A model generated the notes under the pieces. The model saw nothing but the letters and a program-made list of their open reading frames with translations. It did no database searches and was not told the origin of the DNA. Below are positions 7,470 through 41,617 of a stretch of DNA of 64,000 nt, piece after piece. Within the stretch, counting starts at the first letter, position 1, and each line of letters begins with the position of its first letter. The DNA is from Planctomycetales bacterium (GTDB lineage: Bacteria; 4484-113): contig JAUWGS010000007.1 of assembly GCA_030606285.1 (NCBI GenBank), forward strand, positions 1 to 64,000, written 5' to 3'. Made by a program: the position numbers and the translations under genes.

Positions 7470-9353
7470 ATGCGTTCCAGTCAGGTCATCCGGCTAGTGC
7501 TCGCATTCGCGGCGGTCTGCCTTGCGGTTACGCTTGCCACCTGCGGCGGCAAACGCACGTCGAATCCGCCAATCGTCAGGAGCGGCGGCTTCCAAGCCGC
7601 CGATTATCCCGCTGACACCCTTGATGAACTCGCTGCGCTCGAAACTCCCACCGGCGTGGATGAGGAGTTGTTCCAACAACTGAAGGATGCGTTGGGGGAA
7701 GCGCTCCAAGAAACCCGGAGTGGTGAACTCCAGTTCGCCACACCTTTAGGAGTCTCGCGACCTGGAGGTCGCGAGTCCGACCGGAATGTATCCACGCCCC
7801 CCATCGGCGAGCCCAACCGCGTCACCGATCTCGCCATCACCGACAACGGCGACAGCACCTTCACGCTTTCCTGGCACTACCGCAACCTCGGCGACTACGA
7901 TCAGAACGGCACGGTGGACATCTTGGACATCCTTTCTCTCGCCGAGCACTACGGCGAAGAAGTCCCGGACGACGATGACAACTCGCTCCAGGCCGTCATC
8001 GACGGCTCCGGCAACGGCATCGTAGACATCGCCGATATCACACCGCTGGCGATGAACTATGGGGCGAACTGCGCGGGGTATTCCATCCAGACCTCGGATG
8101 CGGGAGAAGGCCCGTTCACGGAAATACTAAGTGCCCCATTAAGTGCCGCTTCAGGCGAGGCGAGGAGAGTATTCGATGTGGAGTTGCCAACTGACTCAAG
8201 TGGCTATGCTCGCGTACTATCATTTGACTGTGAAGGAACTCCTGGCGTCGAAGGCATTGCAGTACAGTTGCCTTCTCTTGGCGGTCGAGGGGATTGGTGG
8301 ATGTTCGGAAGGGAACCTACGCACAACAGGAGAAGCCCATACGTGGGTGCACAATTCCCAAATCTCAAGTGGAGATATCAGACAGAACGCCGGATAGAAT
8401 CCAGTCCGGCCATCGGTCTCAGCGGAACCATATACGTGGGAAGCTGGGATGGTTATGTTTACGCGATTACACCGCAAGGAACTCTCATGTGGAAGTATGA
8501 GACTGGAGGCTTGGTGGGCTCCAGTCCGGCAATAGGCGAGGATGGCACGGTCTATGTAGGCAGTTACGACCACTACCTGTATGCCATTAGTCCCGACGGA
8601 ACCCTCAAGTGGAGATACGAGATGAGCAACTCGGTGACCTCCAGTCCAGCAATAGGTGCCGATGGAACCATTTACGTGGGGGGGTACTACCGATACTTAT
8701 ACGCCATCATAGATAACGAAATTGAAGGTACGCTCAAATGGCGATATGAGACAGACGCGGCTATGCACCTTTCATGTCCAGCGGTAGGTGCCGATGGCAC
8801 GGTCTACGTCGGTGGAGGCTATGACAATTGCGTATATGCCTTCGACGATAGCGGAACTGAAGGAATCCTCAAGTGGCAATTCGAGACTAGCGAAAACGCC
8901 ACCGTGACCTCCAGTCCGGCGATTGGCGCTGATGGCACCATTTATGTCGGATGCTTGGATAACTATCTCTATGCCATCAATCCCGATGGGACGCTCAGAT
9001 GGCGCTATCTGACGGGAGATTGGGTACTCTCAAGTCCAGCTATTGCTGTAGATGGCACTATATATGTGGGAAGCGGGGACCACTTCGTCTACGCCATCGA
9101 GGATAACGAAACCGAAGGATCACTGAAGTGGAGATACTGCTGCACGGGGTATGTGTTGTCCAGCCCAGCGATAGGTGCCGATGGCACCGTTTATGTCGGT
9201 TGCGGGTACAACTTCGTTGCCATCAGCCCGATAGGAACGCTGAAATGGGAATATAAAACTGACGGCAGCGTGTCGTCCAGTCCGGCGATAGGTGCTGATG
9301 GCTCCCTTTACGTAGGAAACCTAGATGGCTATCTTTACGCATTCGGGGACTAG
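7470..9353 (+). CDS. Lipoprotein with dockerin-like domain and eight-bladed PQQ-type propeller
   Basis: Secreted lipoprotein of 627 residues. Signal peptide with lipobox LATC (C25). Residues about 141-198 contain two dockerin/EF-hand-like calcium loops (DYDQNGTVDILDI and a DGSGNGIVDIADI copy). From about residue 270 to the end come eight repeats of SSPAIGxDGTIYVGS...YLYAI...GTLKWRYET, a beta-propeller of the PQQ-enzyme type without visible catalytic residues. Likely a surface or extracellular binding or scaffold protein. SD cggaggg sits before the ATG. Two perfect palindromes lie inside the coding sequence (7583-7602, 7754-7775) and are translated in the linker before the dockerin region, which looks like in-frame insertion of the genomic repeats. 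Confidence 0.8.
   Translation: MRSSQVIRLVLAFAAVCLAVTLATCGGKRTSNPPIVRSGGFQAADYPADTLDELAALETPTGVDEELFQQLKDALGEALQETRSGELQFATPLGVSRPGGRESDRNVSTPPIGEPNRVTDLAITDNGDSTFTLSWHYRNLGDYDQNGTVDILDILSLAEHYGEEVPDDDDNSLQAVIDGSGNGIVDIADITPLAMNYGANCAGYSIQTSDAGEGPFTEILSAPLSAASGEARRVFDVELPTDSSGYARVLSFDCEGTPGVEGIAVQLPSLGGRGDWWMFGREPTHNRRSPYVGAQFPNLKWRYQTERRIESSPAIGLSGTIYVGSWDGYVYAITPQGTLMWKYETGGLVGSSPAIGEDGTVYVGSYDHYLYAISPDGTLKWRYEMSNSVTSSPAIGADGTIYVGGYYRYLYAIIDNEIEGTLKWRYETDAAMHLSCPAVGADGTVYVGGGYDNCVYAFDDSGTEGILKWQFETSENATVTSSPAIGADGTIYVGCLDNYLYAINPDGTLRWRYLTGDWVLSSPAIAVDGTIYVGSGDHFVYAIEDNETEGSLKWRYCCTGYVLSSPAIGADGTVYVGCGYNFVAISPIGTLKWEYKTDGSVSSSPAIGADGSLYVGNLDGYLYAFGD
7583..7602. repeat. Perfect palindrome inside dockerin lipoprotein gene
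   Basis: Nine-bp arms CGGCGGCTT / AAGCCGCCG around a 2-nt centre, in frame within the poorly conserved N-terminal linker. Confidence 0.7.
7754..7775. repeat. Perfect palindrome inside dockerin lipoprotein gene
   Basis: Ten-bp arms CTCGCGACCT / AGGTCGCGAG around GG, translated as part of the linker. Confidence 0.7.
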
Positions 9354-9544
9354 TGCCCTAGGCAATCTATAACTCCCCATTTGCTAGTAAACCGTAGTCA
9401 GCAACTTCCATACTCTGCTGCGTACTTTGTCCCAGTTGTTTATACTCCTCTTCCATCTCAATCCCAGAATTTAACCCAAATCAGTGTCCGCTTTTTGCCA
9501 GAACCTGCTATAATAGTTAATGAGCGTAGAAATACGCGAAAGAT

Positions 9545-10729
9545 ATGGCTGATGTCGCAGAAACGCGCGATTCCCCTGTAGGCTTGCCCGCCTGTGGCGG
9601 GGCGCGATTTGCGCCGCCTGGTCCCAATACTGGTGGCACGGGCGACTCGCCCGTGATTCCCCCCAACAAGAGCCGGGCTAGTGAGCCCGGCGTACTCAGT
9701 GGGGAACTCATATTCGATGCGGGAGAACTCCACGCCCAACTCGCAGACCTACTCCAGCTCTATTTGAAACGCGCAGCCGATCCCGATGCGGTGGCAAAAT
9801 GCTCCGCCAAGGACGCGATTTCGTGCGCGAAGACGCTCACAGCGATGATGTCCGACGTCCAGTCGGGCAAACCCGCTTCGGTTGACGCGAACACGGACTG
9901 GCCCCGGATGGAATCCTCTTCTGTAGGGCGGGGATTTATCCCCGCCGCCTCTTCAACACATCGAAGACCGGCGGCCATAAATGACCGCCCTACAGGCTCT
10001 TCCCGTCCTACTTCCTACATCCTACCTCCTACCGGTTCTACTCCCATCCTCGAGGACGCGCTCTCGACGGTTTTTGCGTCCGACGAGGAGATTCAAATCC
10101 CCGAACCCTATAAACGCCTGATCGCCCGCATCCAGAAATTGTGCATCGAGACGCAGAAACGTCTGGACGAGGCCCCAAACCGGGTAGGCGGTGCTCACCA
10201 GCGCCGCTCTGAAAACGAAGGTTGCGCAAAGGACGCTAAGAGCCGGGCTAGTGAGCCCGGCCTACCCAATGTGGATATCGCGCCCGAATCTTCCTGTAGG
10301 GTGCGGTCTCGTGCCGCACCCTCTTCCGTAGGGGCACGGCACGCCGTGCCCTCCGGCGAAGGAGACCGGGCAATTCGTGTCTTCGACCCTGAGGCTCAAA
10401 CCCGAAGGGAATTGCCCCTACGTCAGGACGTCCAAAAACCAACAACTAACAACCAGCAACCGCTTCGGCAGGAGCCCGGCGTACCCAACAAGGATGTCGC
10501 GTCTGAATCCTGTAGGGTGTCGCGCGAAACGCGGGATGCCGCACCGTCTTCCGTAGGGGTTTACCCGCCTGGGCGGGCACGGCACGCCGTGCCCTCCGAT
10601 GCGGGTGGTGATGCAAGGGCATGGCATGCCATGCCCCTACAATCCAACAACCAAAAGCCGACATTTACCCGCCATAGCTTCAGCAACGGCGGGCACGCTA
10701 CCCGCTACTCTCCGGCAGCCCCCACGTGA
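9545..10729 (+). CDS. Unknown protein gene heavily invaded by palindromic repeats (possibly degenerate)
   Basis: A 394-codon frame with no recognised family. Two segments look like ordinary protein: about residues 57-107 (helical, from GELIFDAGELHAQL to MMSDVQSG) and about 170-215 (from PILEDAL to KRLDEAP). Everything else is the in-frame translation of GC-rich palindromes, giving peptides such as SRASEPG (twice), SSVGRGF and ARHAVPS (twice). TATAAT at 9509-9514 is 5 nt before an out-of-frame ATG at 9520 (MSVEIRERYG, stop), so the original start may have been lost by a frameshift, with translation now possible only from 9545. Whether a protein is made is uncertain. The host gene may have been a short two-part helical protein. 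Confidence 0.4.
   Translation: MADVAETRDSPVGLPACGGARFAPPGPNTGGTGDSPVIPPNKSRASEPGVLSGELIFDAGELHAQLADLLQLYLKRAADPDAVAKCSAKDAISCAKTLTAMMSDVQSGKPASVDANTDWPRMESSSVGRGFIPAASSTHRRPAAINDRPTGSSRPTSYILPPTGSTPILEDALSTVFASDEEIQIPEPYKRLIARIQKLCIETQKRLDEAPNRVGGAHQRRSENEGCAKDAKSRASEPGLPNVDIAPESSCRVRSRAAPSSVGARHAVPSGEGDRAIRVFDPEAQTRRELPLRQDVQKPTTNNQQPLRQEPGVPNKDVASESCRVSRETRDAAPSSVGVYPPGRARHAVPSDAGGDARAWHAMPLQSNNQKPTFTRHSFSNGGHATRYSPAAPT
9578..10650. repeat. Dense cluster of palindromic modules
   Basis: At least eight inverted repeats. GCCGGGCT-AGTG-AGCCCGGC occurs at 9672-9691 and again at 10242-10261. There is a tgtagggcggggattt...ccccgcc module at about 9932-9955, a GGTGCGG...CCGCACC module near 10300, ggcacgccgtgcc at about 10330 and 10580, and a perfect 20-bp palindrome at 10617-10636. 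Short-unit runs lie between them: cctac-rich at about 10005-10033 and caaca/aac-rich at about 10436-10462. Confidence 0.75.
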
Positions 10730-33368: not shown

Positions 33369-33451
33369 TGGTTACAGCTTAGATGGCTAAGGACGACTAC
33401 TTTGATGTATAATAACCTGCGCTGCTATTAACCGCGGGAGGTGTCGGTTAT

Positions 33452-35098
33452 ATGGTTGAGACGAAGAATGTCATATTGATCACCGGCCAATCGGGAATCA
33501 AGGTTGATAAATGCGTAGAACATATAGTTGAAGGCCTAGACGGCTTCACTCACATCAGGTTCAAGAAGCACTTGGACAGCGTCCTAAGCAATCTTCATCC
33601 AATACCAAAGGAAGCATTCAAGATGTTCTTGTGCATGCCGCCTATGGAAATGCATAAGTGGTGGCAAGCTGCGTTCAAGGAGATGATGTCGGAACTGAGC
33701 AGTCATGTTGACACGACCTGCATCATCACTTTCCATGGATGCCACTACAATCAAAGAAAACGTGAGTTCCTGTATCCTACCGGGCTTGATGAACTCCAGT
33801 TGCTAAGTGGCCGAGTTTTGCGTGTAGTCACTCTAATTGACGATTGCTTCGACATCTACGCCAGGCTATGCGAGCCTGACGAGATGTACCACCGGCTTTT
33901 GATAGAAGACGAGGGCAAGTCCAAGGACCATACTCTCTTGCTAAATGTAGCAAGAGCTTCCCAGCAGAACTTAACAGATGTTTTAATGTGGCGCGCGTTG
34001 GAAATAGCCTTCTCGCGCCTTGTAGCATATTGGCTAAAAGGCGAATTCTACGTTCTAGCTGTAAAGCACCCACTAAAGACTGGTCAGAGGTTATTTTCAC
34101 TTCCTTCTGATCACATGAAAGTGAAATATGTATCTCACCCCATCACTAAAGTCCGGACCGCTCCTAGTGAGAGTGCGGAGCGTGCCAGGAAGTACATTGC
34201 AGAGTTGAATATCTTCATAGAAGAGGAGGTTAATAAGAACGATGACCTAGTGCTTTTCATCCCTGATACCATTGATGAACTCAGGTTCACAACAGGAGCG
34301 GGCGGCTTTCCTGATTTGGATGACCATTGGGACCTCCCTTTCTCGAAGCAGGAGCGTATATGCCCTGCTTCCATAGCGCCAAATCCCGATTTTCATCCAC
34401 TCTATCCTCTGGGAAGGCCGGGGAAAAAAGCGCTGAGTGAAATGAAGGCTCGTGTGGACTCCCTTAAGGATAAGATTGATCAACAGATCGACTCTAGGGA
34501 CCATACTCTAGTTGAGCAGGCGAGTCAGGGGCTTGTCGTCTATAGGCCACGGTTCCTAGGATACGATGTGTCAGACGGAGTGAGTGAAGAAATTATGTAT
34601 AACAAAGACCTTCGCGATCAGGGAGAGAGTACAAGGCTGCTGTCTGTGTACGAACACTCCGAGGATTATGCGGAATTCGCAATTCGAAAGCTAGATTTCA
34701 CCGTTAGGCGTGTTTTGGGTATATCAACTGATAGCAATACTGAAGGTAAAGTCAGCAAAAAGATTAAAGAAGCACGTGCAATCTTATCGCGTTTCATAAA
34801 TGACGAGATGCTTTATTGCACAAATAGAATACATCAACAGAACGAACAGGATTTGCTTGACCTAATTTCTAGAGCGAAGGCGCAATTAGGAGAACTGAAA
34901 AGCCGATTAGTTTTACGTCGGAAAAGCAGGAAAAGTGCTCTCGATGGCGACTACTACCAGATGGAAGCTGTTGACTGGGATAAGCGCTGGGAAGAAATTC
35001 ACGATACGTTCCTACGGGAAATGCAGACCAGATTCGTATTTTATAAATGCCTTGAGGAGGAGAAAGGAGATATCCAGAAATGGCTCGATTTGCACTAG
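33452..35098 (+). CDS. Unknown protein with P-loop-like N-terminus
   Basis: 548 residues, not recognised. The N-terminus NVILITGQSGIKVDKC has a strand, then a glycine loop like a nucleoside kinase, but the GK[S/T] is replaced by IKVDK. IITFHGCHY and VTLIDDCFDIYARL suggest further kinase-like strands (Walker-B-like IDD). A helical/coiled-coil C-terminal part (about 325-350, 430-548) follows. Clearly AT-richer than the flanking genes, so likely acquired. SD gggagg 9 nt before the ATG; TATAAT about 40 nt upstream. A 47-bp gap separates it from the small gene downstream, likely cotranscribed. Confidence 0.55.
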   Translation: MVETKNVILITGQSGIKVDKCVEHIVEGLDGFTHIRFKKHLDSVLSNLHPIPKEAFKMFLCMPPMEMHKWWQAAFKEMMSELSSHVDTTCIITFHGCHYNQRKREFLYPTGLDELQLLSGRVLRVVTLIDDCFDIYARLCEPDEMYHRLLIEDEGKSKDHTLLLNVARASQQNLTDVLMWRALEIAFSRLVAYWLKGEFYVLAVKHPLKTGQRLFSLPSDHMKVKYVSHPITKVRTAPSESAERARKYIAELNIFIEEEVNKNDDLVLFIPDTIDELRFTTGAGGFPDLDDHWDLPFSKQERICPASIAPNPDFHPLYPLGRPGKKALSEMKARVDSLKDKIDQQIDSRDHTLVEQASQGLVVYRPRFLGYDVSDGVSEEIMYNKDLRDQGESTRLLSVYEHSEDYAEFAIRKLDFTVRRVLGISTDSNTEGKVSKKIKEARAILSRFINDEMLYCTNRIHQQNEQDLLDLISRAKAQLGELKSRLVLRRKSRKSALDGDYYQMEAVDWDKRWEEIHDTFLREMQTRFVFYKCLEEEKGDIQKWLDLH

Positions 35099-35145
35099 AC
35101 AGAAGTTTGTAGTATGCTACTATAATCTCAGGGAAGGAGAATGGT

Positions 35146-35385
35146 ATGGGGAAGTACTTATTTCGCTCCGGGGAAGTTTCTGTTCCGATACTGTTCTACA
35201 ACGGCACTCAAGAGGACCTTAAATCCATTGAGCTATTGCGCGATTCCGGCATTGAGTGCAACTACAGAGGTCCTCTTCTCGGCAAACCCACCCCTTATCT
35301 CATATGGGGCTATTTCGAGTATTCGGGACTCAAGGAGATCGAGGAATTCATTACCGATTACACGAGAAGCCGAGAAGCCGCGTGA
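35146..35385 (+). CDS. Small thioredoxin-fold-like protein of unknown function
   Basis: 79 residues. VSVPILFYNGTQEDLKSIELL then SGIECNYRGP, TPYLIWGYFEY and SGLKEIEEFI follow the beta-alpha-beta-beta-alpha order of glutaredoxin-like folds (including a TP cis-Pro-like site), but there is no CxxC. SD aggag before the ATG is strong. Downstream of the P-loop-like gene and of the same composition, so probably a functional pair. Confidence 0.5.
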   Translation: MGKYLFRSGEVSVPILFYNGTQEDLKSIELLRDSGIECNYRGPLLGKPTPYLIWGYFEYSGLKEIEEFITDYTRSREAA

Positions 35386-35504
35386 GTCTGCATAAGCTTA
35401 TGTAAAACTTCAGATTTAGCGATTTCAGGGCTTATTCTAGGCTCTTCATAATGAAGATAGCAGAAGACAGTCGTGTACTCACGCACAGTCAAATCCCAGT
35501 TCGA

Positions 35505-36982: not shown

Positions 36983-37849
36983 TCATTCCCCTGCGGGCTC
37001 TCGGAGCTGCCGGAGGAACTCCTTCAGGCTGTGCATATAGAGCTGTTCCGCAACCACGAACATATCGTTATGCCCCGCGCCCGGGATCTCCACCAGCGCT
37101 TTGGGCTGCACCGCAGCCTTATAAAGCCTTCGCGCATGCTCGATGGGAACCGTGGTATCGCGCGTCCCGTGGATTATGAGCAAGGGCGCGTTAATTCCTT
37201 CAATCTTGCCCATTGAATTGAGCTTTGTCCTGAGATAGAGCTCCGGAGGAAGGAACGGCATGGATCTGCGCGCCATGTCCTTCGCGGAGGTGAACGCGGA
37301 CTCGAGAACGACCGCTCCCACCGGTTTGCGGGACGCCAGGTCAACGGCAACGGCCCCGCCCAGGGATTCCCCGTAGAGCACGATGCTTTCGGGCTCAACA
37401 CCTCTCTCGCTGCACAGGTAGTCGTAGGCGGCGTCGGCATCAGCGTACAGACCGGCTTCGCCGGGCCGTCCCTTGCTGCGCCCGTAGCCCCGGTAGTCGA
37501 TTGCGAGAACGTTCACGTTTAGCGAGTGCAGGAGCGCGAGCTTCTCTATCCGGTCAGTCAGGTTCCCACCGTTGCCGTGGAACAAAAGCATGGTATGCGC
37601 CGCGCCTTCCGCCGGAATGAACCAGCCGTGGATGCGAACACCATCTCTGGTTGAAAGGTAAACGTCCTGAACGTCAAGACCGTAGAAGCTCGCGTCCCAT
37701 CTGCCCGTCGGGTACTTCGTCGGGAAGTAGATGAAGCTTCCTTCGAAGAGGTGCACGAGCAGGATGAGCACGGCGAGCGTGATCAGGACAATGACTATCA
37801 GGTGCACGAGCATTTTCTTTAGCTTCGCTGCTATTTCAGATCCCCGCAT
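36983..37849 (-). CDS. Membrane-anchored alpha/beta hydrolase (BEM46/ABHD-like)
   Basis: 288 residues with a membrane helix near the N-terminus (about 12-38), then a serine-hydrolase core. LLFHGNGGN (oxyanion), YRGYGRSKG, nucleophile elbow YGESLGGAV, HGTRDTTVP (Asp) and GAGHND (His) complete the triad. Esterase-like; substrate unknown. The frame extends to 37924, but the ATG at 37849 lies inside the duplicated thyX 3' end and would have overlapped the thyX stop in the ancestral order. That suggests the two were once coupled before the AIPR cassette came between them. Confidence 0.75.
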   Translation of the reverse strand: MRGSEIAAKLKKMLVHLIVIVLITLAVLILLVHLFEGSFIYFPTKYPTGRWDASFYGLDVQDVYLSTRDGVRIHGWFIPAEGAAHTMLLFHGNGGNLTDRIEKLALLHSLNVNVLAIDYRGYGRSKGRPGEAGLYADADAAYDYLCSERGVEPESIVLYGESLGGAVAVDLASRKPVGAVVLESAFTSAKDMARRSMPFLPPELYLRTKLNSMGKIEGINAPLLIIHGTRDTTVPIEHARRLYKAAVQPKALVEIPGAGHNDMFVVAEQLYMHSLKEFLRQLREPAGE

Positions 37850-37884
37850 GCGGCAAACGCGGCTGCGCAGCTCTCGCACAGGCA
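37831..37884 (-). repeat. Diverged second copy of the thyX 3' end (left flank of AIPR cassette)
   Basis: 54 nt matching 39718-39771. The first 24 nt are identical; the remaining 30 have 8 substitutions. Read in the thyX frame it encodes LCESCAAAFAACGDLK then the stop, against LCKGCTATFAACGDLK in intact thyX. Confidence 0.85.
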
Positions 37885-37908
37885 TATCCGCCCGCCTGAG
37901 ATCAGCTG

Positions 37909-39705
37909 CTACAGCAAGCCGCATCCCTCCAGATACGTATCGAGACCGATGTCTTCAACCTTCTCGTTTATTTTGTCTTTCACCTTCTGAAAGGTAGTCT
38001 TCTTTAAGAGCGCATTACGGATGCTGAATAACTCGCCATGCTCCTGCGCATCCAGAGAATCTCTTTTTACCTCGTACCATACGGCCACCTCACACTTACT
38101 GAATATCTCCGTGGCGTGCTCATCCACTTTACTTAGGAATTCGCTGACTCTCTCATTAGAACTGACGTCGAAACCGGCTGTGGAGAAAACGTGCCCCGCC
38201 GCTGCAATGAGAACAAGGTCTGCATGATCCAGAACATCAGCGCGCAACTTATTATCTGACAAAGTAGAGCTATCAGCAGGAGTATTGTTCCTAAGTTCAC
38301 GCTGCTTATTCTCAGTAAGGGCACGGAATTTTAAGGCAAGTAATGTTGGCAATAGCAGTTCGCATGCTTTCCTGTTATTGGGAAATACGTCCCTGTACCT
38401 ACCAGCGTCAGTTATGTCCCATATGCTCTTAGTCTCTGATTTTGCTTCAGTAGGATAACCATTAAATGCGAGATAGGACCTGGCAGCCTCTTGGTTGGTG
38501 AACCTACGGTACTTTGAACGCCTTGCGCCGCCTTCTCGAGGCATTTTAAAAGGATTCTTATCATTTTCGCTCAAAACCGACCATTCGCCATCCTTCACAT
38601 CAAAGAAATAGGATGGTGACCAATTCTTGAACTGCAGCTGGAGGGACCGCTGTACGGGATCATTTGCCCTAAGGGACCGCGAATCCACTCTAGTTTGGCT
38701 ATTTGTGAACGTGGCTATTTTCGTTTTAAGCTCTTCTTCGTCAGTCGCAACGATTCGAACAAGAAATGCGACGTCAGAGGCGTATCTATGGACATCATGG
38801 CGATTCAGAACTGATACGGTTTGACAACCATTAACGATTTGCGGCCGTCTAAGGTGAATCGTTCTCTCGTTATCTCTAATGTCGAAACTGTCGCACACGA
38901 TTGTCACGCCGTTGTTGTATGCCAGAACTGCGTGTCTTTCCGTTGCCTGCTGTATAGTCTGAGAAATCCTGCTATTAACGGGATTCCTCAGGTCAAGGAA
39001 GTAGCGGAAGTTAGCAGCAAACATCTCTGGAGAATTGCCGAAATCGGCAAGCTCCCTACCGCCCACCATTACAGACGCAACTCTAAGGCTTTCACTCTCA
39101 TGTAGCAACACACCGGACTCCATATAAACTAAGTCTTTCGACTCTGGAGGCGGAGACGCAAACGGTCCGATTGCGAGATATTTGTTTCGCAGCTGCTTCC
39201 ATCCAACAATCTCTGATGTAAACCTCTCCTCTTCGGCCTGTGGGTACTGGGCCCGAAGGGCGTCTCGCAGCTGGTCGCTATGTTCAGGACTTGCGGTGCC
39301 AATATGGACGAACAAAAGTGAGACGCTGTACATGTTCTCTAAGCACTTTTTCAACCTGTCGCTTTCCCTGTAGATAGCTTTGCTCTCATCGACTATTCTA
39401 TCCGGCGATTCCATTCTCTTGGGAAGCGATGCAAACGACCTTAATTCATCAAGGCCGTACGCATCAGTGTATTTACATTGTACTAAGTAAACGACACCTT
39501 CTTCATCGCTTACGTGAAATCCGTCAAGACCTCCATCGCCAGGCCCATCTGTATTCGCGGTTTTTGCCTCACTATCAGCGAGTAACAGAATCGTCCGAAG
39601 CACCCAATGAGTAAAAGCCTGTCCATCATTAGAGTACCCAGGATGGTCTTCTCTAATAGACGCGATTTCTGCGGATAACTGCTCCAAAAAATCCTGTTTT
39701 TCCAT
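37909..39705 (-). CDS. AIPR-family abortive-infection phage resistance protein
   Basis: 598 residues. The N-terminal part (about 1-165) resembles a PD-(D/E)XK nuclease: DGGLDGF (Asp) then VVYLVQCKYTD (Q-x-K). The AIPR domain follows (about 240-560), with AYNNGVTIVCDSF, HLRRPQIVNGCQTVS and FTNSQTRVDSRSLRAND. Family members give abortive infection against phages. SD agg-aga sits 5 nt before the ATG. Clearly AT-richer than thyX and the hydrolase. It is flanked by two copies of the thyX 3' end, so it looks like a single-gene cassette inserted downstream of thyX. Confidence 0.9.
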   Translation of the reverse strand: MEKQDFLEQLSAEIASIREDHPGYSNDGQAFTHWVLRTILLLADSEAKTANTDGPGDGGLDGFHVSDEEGVVYLVQCKYTDAYGLDELRSFASLPKRMESPDRIVDESKAIYRESDRLKKCLENMYSVSLLFVHIGTASPEHSDQLRDALRAQYPQAEEERFTSEIVGWKQLRNKYLAIGPFASPPPESKDLVYMESGVLLHESESLRVASVMVGGRELADFGNSPEMFAANFRYFLDLRNPVNSRISQTIQQATERHAVLAYNNGVTIVCDSFDIRDNERTIHLRRPQIVNGCQTVSVLNRHDVHRYASDVAFLVRIVATDEEELKTKIATFTNSQTRVDSRSLRANDPVQRSLQLQFKNWSPSYFFDVKDGEWSVLSENDKNPFKMPREGGARRSKYRRFTNQEAARSYLAFNGYPTEAKSETKSIWDITDAGRYRDVFPNNRKACELLLPTLLALKFRALTENKQRELRNNTPADSSTLSDNKLRADVLDHADLVLIAAAGHVFSTAGFDVSSNERVSEFLSKVDEHATEIFSKCEVAVWYEVKRDSLDAQEHGELFSIRNALLKKTTFQKVKDKINEKVEDIGLDTYLEGCGLL

Positions 39706-39717
39706 TACACTCTCCTA

Positions 39718-39771
39718 CTATTTCAGATCCCCGCATGCGGCGAATGTGGCTGTGCAGCCCTTACAGAGGCA
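39718..39771 (-). repeat. Intact thyX 3' end (right flank of AIPR cassette)
   Basis: The last 54 nt of thyX, repeated at 37831-37884 on the same strand as a direct repeat 1.89 kb apart. Confidence 0.85.
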
Positions 39772-40596
39772 GCGCTTGACGTGAAACATCGCCGCGTACA
39801 GGCCGTCGTCGGCCAGCAGGCGCAGGATGCGGCTGGGCGGCTGGCCCTTGTCCCTGAGTTTCGCCAGCTCGCGCTCGACAATCTTCTGTGCCTCCGCGCA
39901 ATCAATCGTTTCCGAGATATGCGTGACGACCCACGTTTTTTCGTCCAGGACTAGATCGCCGAACACAGCTGGTGCGAGTTCGCGGATCAGCTTCAGCATC
40001 AGGCCGCATATGCGGCGGATCTCCCATTGTGCGGCGGCGTTGCAGCGGGTGCGGCAGACGTGGCGCCATTCGCGGAAATTGCCGGAAATGACGATGCCGC
40101 TCTCAACCGCGTTGGGCAGCACGAAACGGGCGTCCTCGTTTTCCAGGCCGAGCTCCTTTAGCCGCTGGTATGCCTTTCGCGTTTCCTCCATCAGTTCCAC
40201 AAACACCTTGCGCGCTTCCGGGTTGCCAGCGATAGAGGGCGGAAGCACCGCCCGGAAGTCCTTCTCGCTGACGTAGCGCTGACTCTGCTGGGAGAACGAA
40301 AGCAGGCGGTGTCTGACCTGCTCGTGGGTGTATGCCCGGCTTCCCCCGAGCACGCGGAAAGTGGCGCTTGCATGCTCCAGCACGCTTTCGTGCCCGCGCA
40401 AGATTATGCCGCGAATGAAACGCTTGCCGCTCTCCGGGGACATCTGCGCCTGCGACTGATAGCACTCCCGTGCGGCACGCTCGATGTGCTCTTCCACAGA
40501 CCCGCCTTCGATTGGCCGGGTGAAGCCCATTAGGCTTACAGTGGGCTCAGTTAGCAGCACGGAAACCGCTTCTATGCGATCAGTAAGAGTCTTCAT
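39718..40596 (-). CDS. thyX: Flavin-dependent thymidylate synthase
   Basis: Makes dTMP from dUMP using methylene-THF, FAD and NADPH. 292 residues from the ATG at 40596, which has gagag just upstream and overlaps the HD-GYP stop by 17 nt (coupled). The frame opens at 40668. Signature RHRLLSFSQQSQRY (about 95-108), preceded by RGHESVLEHA and followed by GIVISGNFREWRH and RCNAAAQWEIR. The C-terminal cysteine cluster CLCKGC...AACGDLK is an extension beyond the core that might bind metal. The kinase-dCMP deaminase fusion at 54771 could supply its dUMP. Confidence 0.95.
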   Translation of the reverse strand: MKTLTDRIEAVSVLLTEPTVSLMGFTRPIEGGSVEEHIERAARECYQSQAQMSPESGKRFIRGIILRGHESVLEHASATFRVLGGSRAYTHEQVRHRLLSFSQQSQRYVSEKDFRAVLPPSIAGNPEARKVFVELMEETRKAYQRLKELGLENEDARFVLPNAVESGIVISGNFREWRHVCRTRCNAAAQWEIRRICGLMLKLIRELAPAVFGDLVLDEKTWVVTHISETIDCAEAQKIVERELAKLRDKGQPPSRILRLLADDGLYAAMFHVKRCLCKGCTATFAACGDLK

Positions 40597-41617
40597 CTCT
40601 CTCACTACGGATTTCAAGCCGCTGTTCGTTTTCCTCTCTGTAGCCGGGTTCAGGTATGCCAGCGACATGGTAGATCGACCGGTAGCCCTCTGCCGTGGTC
40701 TCCAGCAACTCGAAGAAATCCCTCACAAGCTGGCCGTCAAGTTGCGAGTCGGCCACCTCCAGCATTTTCTCCTTGGCGACGTTGTACGGCATGGATGGCC
40801 TGTACGGCCGATTGCTGGTCATTGCGTCAAAGCAGTCGGCAATGCAGATTATCTTCACCAGCTGCGGAAGGTCGGACAATCCGTCGGGATAGCCCCCACC
40901 GTCTATCCGCTCGTGGTGGTGACGGATGATTCCGCGAGTAGGACTGAGGAGTTTGATATTCTTCACAATCGCCTCGCCGCGCTCCGGATGCTCCATCACC
41001 ACTGCGAACTCATCGGCTGTGAGTTGTCCTGGCTTGAGCAAGATCTCGTCGGGCAGCCCTAGCTTCCCGATGTCGTGGAGCAGAGAGGCCCGTTCCAGCG
41101 TCTCGATATCCATCTCGCTAACGCCAGCGTAACGCGCCAGCAAGGTCGACCAGCCGGCCACGCGCAGAGAGTGGTTCTGAGTGTACTCGTCACGCGCCTC
41201 CAGCGTGGCGATCAGGCCGCGCACGGTTTCGAGGAACAACCCGCGCAATTCCTTGTTTAGCCGGTGTTCTTCATCGGACTGCGCAGAGACAACTTTGTTC
41301 AGGCTGAGGATGATATCGCCGGTTTCATGCTCGATTCGCGCGTGCTCTTCCGCATCGTCAAGGAGCACTCCCAGATGCTCCTTCGTCCGCCGGTAATGCG
41401 TGTGTAGAACGACAACGCCAGCCAGAAGAAGCACAGCGAACGTCAGTCCCGCAGCGATAAAGGTGAAGATGCCCGACGGGCTCCCTATCGGCGTGTAATA
41501 CCGGAATAAGACGACGAAGATGACGACACTAGCGACCGCAAGTAGAAGGATAAAAGCCCAGGCCATCCTTGGTACCTGGACTACTCCTCCCCAGGGGGTA
41601 CGAGGTGCAGTGTTCAT
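40580..41617 (-). CDS. Membrane-anchored HD-GYP domain protein
   Basis: Predicted cyclic-di-GMP phosphodiesterase. 345 residues: two membrane helices (about 18-38 and 48-72), a coiled linker (about 75-125), then HD-GYP. The latter has NHSLRVAGW, HDIGKLGLPD (HD at 181-182), HPERG and HHHERIDGGGYPDGL (233-247). The GYP is complete. TATAAT at 41632-41627 is 9 nt before ATG 41617. Its stop overlaps thyX. Divergent from the BMP-like lipoprotein gene. Confidence 0.9.
   Translation of the reverse strand: MNTAPRTPWGGVVQVPRMAWAFILLLAVASVVIFVVLFRYYTPIGSPSGIFTFIAAGLTFAVLLLAGVVVLHTHYRRTKEHLGVLLDDAEEHARIEHETGDIILSLNKVVSAQSDEEHRLNKELRGLFLETVRGLIATLEARDEYTQNHSLRVAGWSTLLARYAGVSEMDIETLERASLLHDIGKLGLPDEILLKPGQLTADEFAVVMEHPERGEAIVKNIKLLSPTRGIIRHHHERIDGGGYPDGLSDLPQLVKIICIADCFDAMTSNRPYRPSMPYNVAKEKMLEVADSQLDGQLVRDFFELLETTAEGYRSIYHVAGIPEPGYREENEQRLEIRSERDEDSY

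Follow-up and report, generated by a model that had tools for sequence, protein, structure and literature searches.

The window analysed here is a stretch of 64,000 nucleotides from a Planctomycetales bacterium, in which three genes on the minus strand follow one another: thyX, a gene of the AIPR family and the gene of an alpha/beta hydrolase (Table 1). The AIPR gene begins 12 nt past the thyX stop codon, and its GC content is 0.47 against about 0.60 in its neighbours. The thyX reading frame is intact, as the first-pass annotation had stated. ThyX proteins of this family carry a C-terminal extension beyond the Thy1 domain, ending in CxCxxCxxxFAACGDLK (39718-39800 in the window), which looks like a small putative metal-binding motif.

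Two further features of the window are recorded here in their own right. A second low-GC stretch (43-49%) lies beside hslU at 33370-35500 and holds ORFs of 548 and 79 aa; the longer one has no match in Pfam, PADLOC, NCBIfam or PHROGs, and no gene-end repeat was found on the flanks of the stretch. GC-rich interspersed intergenic repeats are also present, of the form GAGCCGGGCTRGTGAGCCCGGCGTA at 9658, 10228, 28281 and 54687, and of the form CGGCGGYCATA..CCGCCCTACAG at 9969, 28260, 28392, 35513 and 54742. At other places in the genome, similar sequences lie on the flanks of some of the inserted cargo genes.

Table 1. Features of the thyX locus (window coordinates) and the clear loci elsewhere in the genome at which a gene end is repeated behind an insert. 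Target names are our reading of the protein sequences, except for thyX, cargos tested with Pfam and named families.
Feature	Position	Strand	Evidence or insert
thyX	39718..40668	minus	intact, first ORF of the pair; Thy1 PF02511 E 4e-58, TIGR02170; extension ends CLCKGCTATFAACGDLK
Gene-side copy of the 57-nt repeat (thyX 3' end)	39715..39771	minus	repeat comparison
24-nt identical core, gene-side copy	39718..39741	minus	repeat comparison
AIPR-family cargo gene, 598 aa, low GC	37909..39705	minus	ORF; Pfam PF10592 E 3e-39
Orphan copy of the thyX 3' end	37828..37884	minus	encodes CLCESCAAAFAACGDLK*; first 30 nt diverged
24-nt identical core, orphan copy	37831..37854	minus	repeat comparison
Alpha/beta hydrolase, native downstream neighbour of thyX	36983..37813	minus	start set by comparison with two relatives
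Biotin carrier (BCCP)	contig C15		TPR gene
Aldehyde dehydrogenase (ALDH)	contig C29		HicB-HicA
rtcB and neighbour g315	contig C17		DUF433-DUF5615
gatB	contig C17		secreted proteins
Sugar nucleotidyltransferase	contig C23		Xre-M78 and a weak DUF4411-like PIN gene
Terminase-like gene	contig C26		weak HicA
g439	contig C10		unrelated gene between
ptb	contig C29, 34478-41849		three orphan ends
219-aa gene	contig C12		HD-domain protein
rluB	contig C17		RelB-ParE/RelE, at 5' end
481-aa gene	contig C12		N6/N4 DNA methylase, at 5' end
metK			also among the clear loci, with others

The AIPR gene and the duplicated thyX end

The domain that assigns the cargo gene to the AIPR family spans residues 229-478 and scores 135.8 bits against a curated Pfam cut-off of 25. 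The closest PADLOC entry is AbiU, and an Abi alpha-like phage family in PHROGs matches over nearly the full length, whereas the NCBIfam equivalog for MzaE gives 47.9 bits against a cut-off of 1050; the AIPR domain is what the cargo gene has in common with AbiU, MzaE and the Abi alpha-like proteins. Unlike in the MZA system, the gene stands alone, without MZA partner genes. Towards its N-terminus the protein has an Mrr-type nuclease-like region (Mrr_cat) at 21.0 bits, exactly the Pfam cut-off, and it shares about 22-36% identity with phage and plasmid members. No sequence match was found in the PDB, and a single-sequence structure model was discarded (mean pLDDT 34). Neither a second AIPR copy nor the cargo gene that occupies this junction in a congener was found in the scanned part of the organism's own genome. 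The gene is a foreign one and probably acts against phages.

Direct repeats of 54 nt around the AIPR gene, with an identical core of 24 nt and a diverged arm of 30 nt, had been noticed in the first-pass annotation, and our comparison confirms them as a 57-nt repeat, 84% identical, with a spacing of 1887 nt. When the hydrolase-side segment was searched against the genome, the thyX-side copy was matched at E 2e-11. Within the 54 coding nucleotides the last 24, on the stop-codon side, are identical and all eight differences lie in the remaining 30, distributed over codon positions 1, 2 and 3 as 4:0:4. The thyX end translates to CLCKGCTATFAACGDLK and the orphan copy to CLCESCAAAFAACGDLK, a diverged version of the same C-terminus, as had been claimed. 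For comparison, 7 of these 54 positions differ between thyX here and that of a congener. The 24-nt core proved unique to this locus, with no third site in the genome at up to three mismatches, and no integrase ORF lies between the repeats, also as annotated. One detail is doubtful: the hydrolase had been thought to start inside the orphan copy. An in-frame ATG at 37849 does lie there and is not conserved, whereas the ATG at 37813, 17 nt past the orphan copy, aligns with the start in both relatives examined, so that the gene probably begins just outside the repeat.

Junctions in relatives and gene-end repeats across the genome

In a member of the same family, Planctomycetales bacterium 4484_113 (genome G002, locus L032), the hydrolase follows directly after the thyX stop codon, which constitutes an empty site. 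In the congener (genome G001, locus L031) an unrelated gene for a putative lipoprotein of 246 aa lies between thyX and the hydrolase (8916-9656), and no second thyX end was found at that junction. AIPR is absent from all 39 other genomes searched. Since thyX and the hydrolase are adjacent in G002 and AIPR occurs in none of those 39 genomes, the AIPR gene is an insertion at the 3' end of thyX, as first proposed, and a constant order of thyX, AIPR and hydrolase lacking the repeat is not what the relatives show. The three states together, with AIPR here, the lipoprotein gene in the congener and nothing in G002, indicate that different genes have come to lie at this junction in different lineages.

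The thyX case is one of many. Over 2.2 Mb of the genome, taken as stretches, the ends of each gene were searched for extra copies nearby, and about 16 loci besides thyX were found at which a gene end is repeated behind an intervening gene (Table 1), the repeats measuring about 30-170 nt. Copies outside called genes numbered 16 downstream of 3' ends and 10 upstream of 5' ends, against four and two in the reverse arrangement, in which no intact gene stands beside the insert (six in total). The thyX copy overlaps a called gene and is not among the 16; with it added, giving 17, the orientations compare as 27 to 6 (binomial p 2e-4). Such recurrence suggests that small foreign genes are acquired here in some general manner and not through one special integration site. 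Behind ptb each of the three orphan ends lies past further genes for secreted proteins, as if insertions had been repeated at one place. The HicA gene behind ALDH (contig C29, 131534-132039) seems to carry a frameshift near its C-terminus.

About half of the inserts hold a toxin-antitoxin, methyltransferase or defence-type gene. Flanking repeats were seen at 3 of 15 loci with HicA or DUF5615 and, for comparison, at 16 of 299 small genes picked at random (Fisher p 0.054), an enrichment that is suggestive only, in a genome rich in such genes anyway (14 HicA matches). With that frequency, flanking repeats were dropped as a marker of all toxin-antitoxin loci. REP-like intergenic repeats were likewise rejected as the cause of the insertions, as they flank some inserts (BCCP, rfbA) and not thyX.

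Several of the other sites can be read against relatives in the same way. In G001 nothing is inserted at the biotin-carrier site or at g439, and in G002 gatB is followed directly by GAPDH. G001 also has an orphan gatB end. At ALDH, the G001 gene, which lies at a contig edge, is followed by the same intergenic sequence that stands past the orphan in this genome. G002, which belongs to another genus, has its own ALDH insertion (contig C57, locus L193), a NYN-domain gene followed by an orphan ALDH end that differs from its own gene at three positions and has almost the same boundary as here.

These comparisons also bear on two other explanations. The orphan as the remnant of a tandem thyX paralogue was rejected as the main account, given that thyX is single in the relatives and that the same scar occurs at many unrelated genes. 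An artefact of assembly or binning that joined strains would be conceivable in a draft of 36 contigs, but the three genes lie within a 105-kb contig, the 24-nt identity is shorter than the usual assembly words, and the same architecture occurs in independently assembled relatives (ALDH in G002, gatB in G001), all of which makes this explanation highly improbable.

Coding history of the copies and the route of insertion

When the 17 loci are pooled, gene end and copy differ at codon positions 1, 2 and 3 as 20:21:79 (chi-square p 4e-13), and this predominance of third positions indicates that both copies have a coding history. With G001 as outgroup, changes at seven loci could be assigned to one copy or the other: orphan-specific changes are distributed 7:6:24 (third-position excess p 9e-5) and gene-specific ones 5:4:11, with totals of 37 and 20 (two-sided p 0.03), with the orphan often, not always, the farther from G001. 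The third-position excess among orphan-specific changes suggests that orphans had their coding past in a lineage other than that of the intact end. Copy divergence is about that of congeneric orthologues, although some pairs are 95-100% identical. Judged from their substitutions, the copies resemble orthologues of a gene end that belong to two lineages, and not a neutral target-site duplication.

This pattern weighs against a transposition-like insertion with long target duplication, in which the target is copied upon insertion and the outer copy then decays. The geometry fits the case published for restriction-modification genes (PMC1643837; PMC3031569), and selection against insertions that break genes would explain the position at gene ends. 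However, decay of a duplicate would be expected to affect the three codon positions equally, whereas 24 of the 37 orphan-specific changes are at third positions, and the repeats often halt at the stop codon; we regard such an origin as distinctly improbable.

Our preferred reading, to which we give about an even chance, is that the AIPR gene arrived by homologous import of related DNA, consisting of a gene end and its cargo, through a single-crossover or one-sided event. A small DNA fragment of a related organism, bearing AIPR as well as the donor's own form of the thyX 3' end, may have been taken up by transformation and would have recombined at the end of thyX, by a single (Campbell-type) crossover or by a one-sided, partly illegitimate event. 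The outcome would be an intact thyX followed by the cargo, with an additional, orphan end of thyX beside the hydrolase, that is, a horizontally acquired single gene between thyX and its native neighbour. Cargo of the toxin-antitoxin, methyltransferase or defence type could then be kept because it is addictive or protective. The crossover route and the exact mechanism are what we infer. The import reading is supported by the empty sites, the recurrence, the third-position bias, the divergence at congeneric level and the low GC of AIPR. It is weakened by several points: no donor was found in which AIPR stands next to thyX; the stretches of homology, at 30-100 nt, are short for recombination of the RecA type; the copies cluster at gene ends and often halt at the stop codon, as a site-specific system would give; the ALDH insertions in two genera have different cargo and nearly the same boundary, like a fixed attachment site; and the thyX differences do not point clearly to one position of crossover. 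We also considered a mosaic breakpoint in thyX relative to G001 and rejected it, as third positions diverge less, not more, over the final 40 codons, and this gives no sign of a distant donor.

A stricter form, homology-facilitated illegitimate recombination, would make the intact end and the cargo donor DNA and the orphan the recipient's original end. Competent bacteria are known to trap foreign DNA in this way (PMC3240628), and the same route has been put forward to explain the orphan ends at type VI loci of Vibrio (PMC5361080). The native flank that follows the orphan at ALDH agrees with it, as do the last residues of the g315 orphan, which agree with G001. At ALDH, however, it is the intact end and not the orphan that is nearer the relatives (6 against 14 differences). 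Moreover, the strict process usually deletes recipient DNA, and in Escherichia coli duplications were ascribed to single crossovers with circles (PMC3240628); no recipient deletion of a size like that of the insert was found here, where there is duplication instead and synteny is kept. We therefore hold the strict form to be improbable. The mixture of native and farther ends is weakly suggestive of single crossovers at varying points of the repeat.

Site-specific integration that restores the gene was the interpretation of the first-pass annotation. The insertion, the duplicated end and the intact thyX stand, and a specific action at thyX is not supported; the interpretation is thus partly supported, correct on insertion with a restored gene and too narrow as to the site. 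On such a model, an element without an integrase, like a cis-mobilizable element, would be moved in trans by a tyrosine integrase recognising the thyX 3' end, and the repeats would be attL and attR. The restored gene end, repeats that finish at or near the stop codon and the identical 24-nt core would all follow, as would the shared ALDH boundary in two genera and the three orphan ends behind ptb, which resemble tandem accretion. Against this, there are about 16 target genes with unrelated sequences, including 5' ends, the core has no match in viral contigs, and serine recombinases are absent from the genome, whose only two tyrosine recombinases are of XerC/D size. It does contain homologues of ComEC and DprA, DNA-uptake components of the kind seen in naturally competent species, and these, with the two Xer-like enzymes, the lack of a serine recombinase and the many unrelated targets, lead us to favour homologous capture over a site-specific integrase. 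ComEC and DprA occur also in bacteria not known to be competent. The integrase model, whose helper might lie outside this genome, we consider unlikely. Because the homology is short, the repeats end sharply at stop codons and the ALDH end has been used more than once, we also retain, as a somewhat unlikely alternative, a site-specific or other mobile route. Such a route, recombinase-free or trans-acting, would place small toxin-antitoxin, methyltransferase or defence genes where housekeeping genes begin or end. Every cargo would bring a coding-competent copy of the target end that restores the gene, and the same ends would be reused across genera for different cargo; this too seems to us rather unlikely.

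Related systems and wider meaning

The closest known system is the insertion with long target duplication of restriction-modification genes, which is said to have been described by Nobusato and colleagues in 2000. As set out in two other reports (PMC1643837; PMC3031569), it shares with the present loci a small selfish or defence gene or operon between conserved genes, direct repeats on both sides, no transposase and an empty site in a relative. Here, both direct repeats and an insertion against an empty site are found at thyX, BCCP, g439 and gatB. In contrast to that system, the copies here differ like orthologues of two lineages, the repeats are short and lie at gene ends, AIPR, toxin-antitoxin modules and secreted proteins are among the cargo, and the lineage is an uncultured one.

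Other systems share parts of the arrangement. Single crossovers with circles in E. coli duplicate part of the target (PMC3240628), and in Vibrio type VI immunity arrays orphan 3' ends are displaced downstream (PMC5361080); in common with our loci, incoming DNA is anchored by homology within a gene, and part of that gene is duplicated or its orphan 3' end displaced. The E. coli duplications measured 109-950 bp, however, compared with the shorter repeats here, for which we infer the route.

Cis-mobilizable elements (CIMEs) are flanked by attL and attR; as in our case, the cargo sits at the 3' end of a gene, has a related site on each side and contains no integrase. They differ in that here there is no parent element, no shared attachment site and many target genes. 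The single defined target sequence expected of an integrative element was not found among about 17 unrelated target genes, used at 3' and 5' ends.

This set of insertions speaks to the question of how individual genes for defence or toxin-antitoxin functions can spread when neither a transposase nor an integrase is in sight. Any genome can be screened computationally for the scar, to learn how general it is, what kinds of cargo are preferred, and whether it is a mark of transformation, of single crossovers or of some unknown element. More interesting than the thyX case alone is that this genome holds a whole set of insertions with traceable scars, each consisting of an intact gene, a cargo and an orphan end that appears to come from another lineage.
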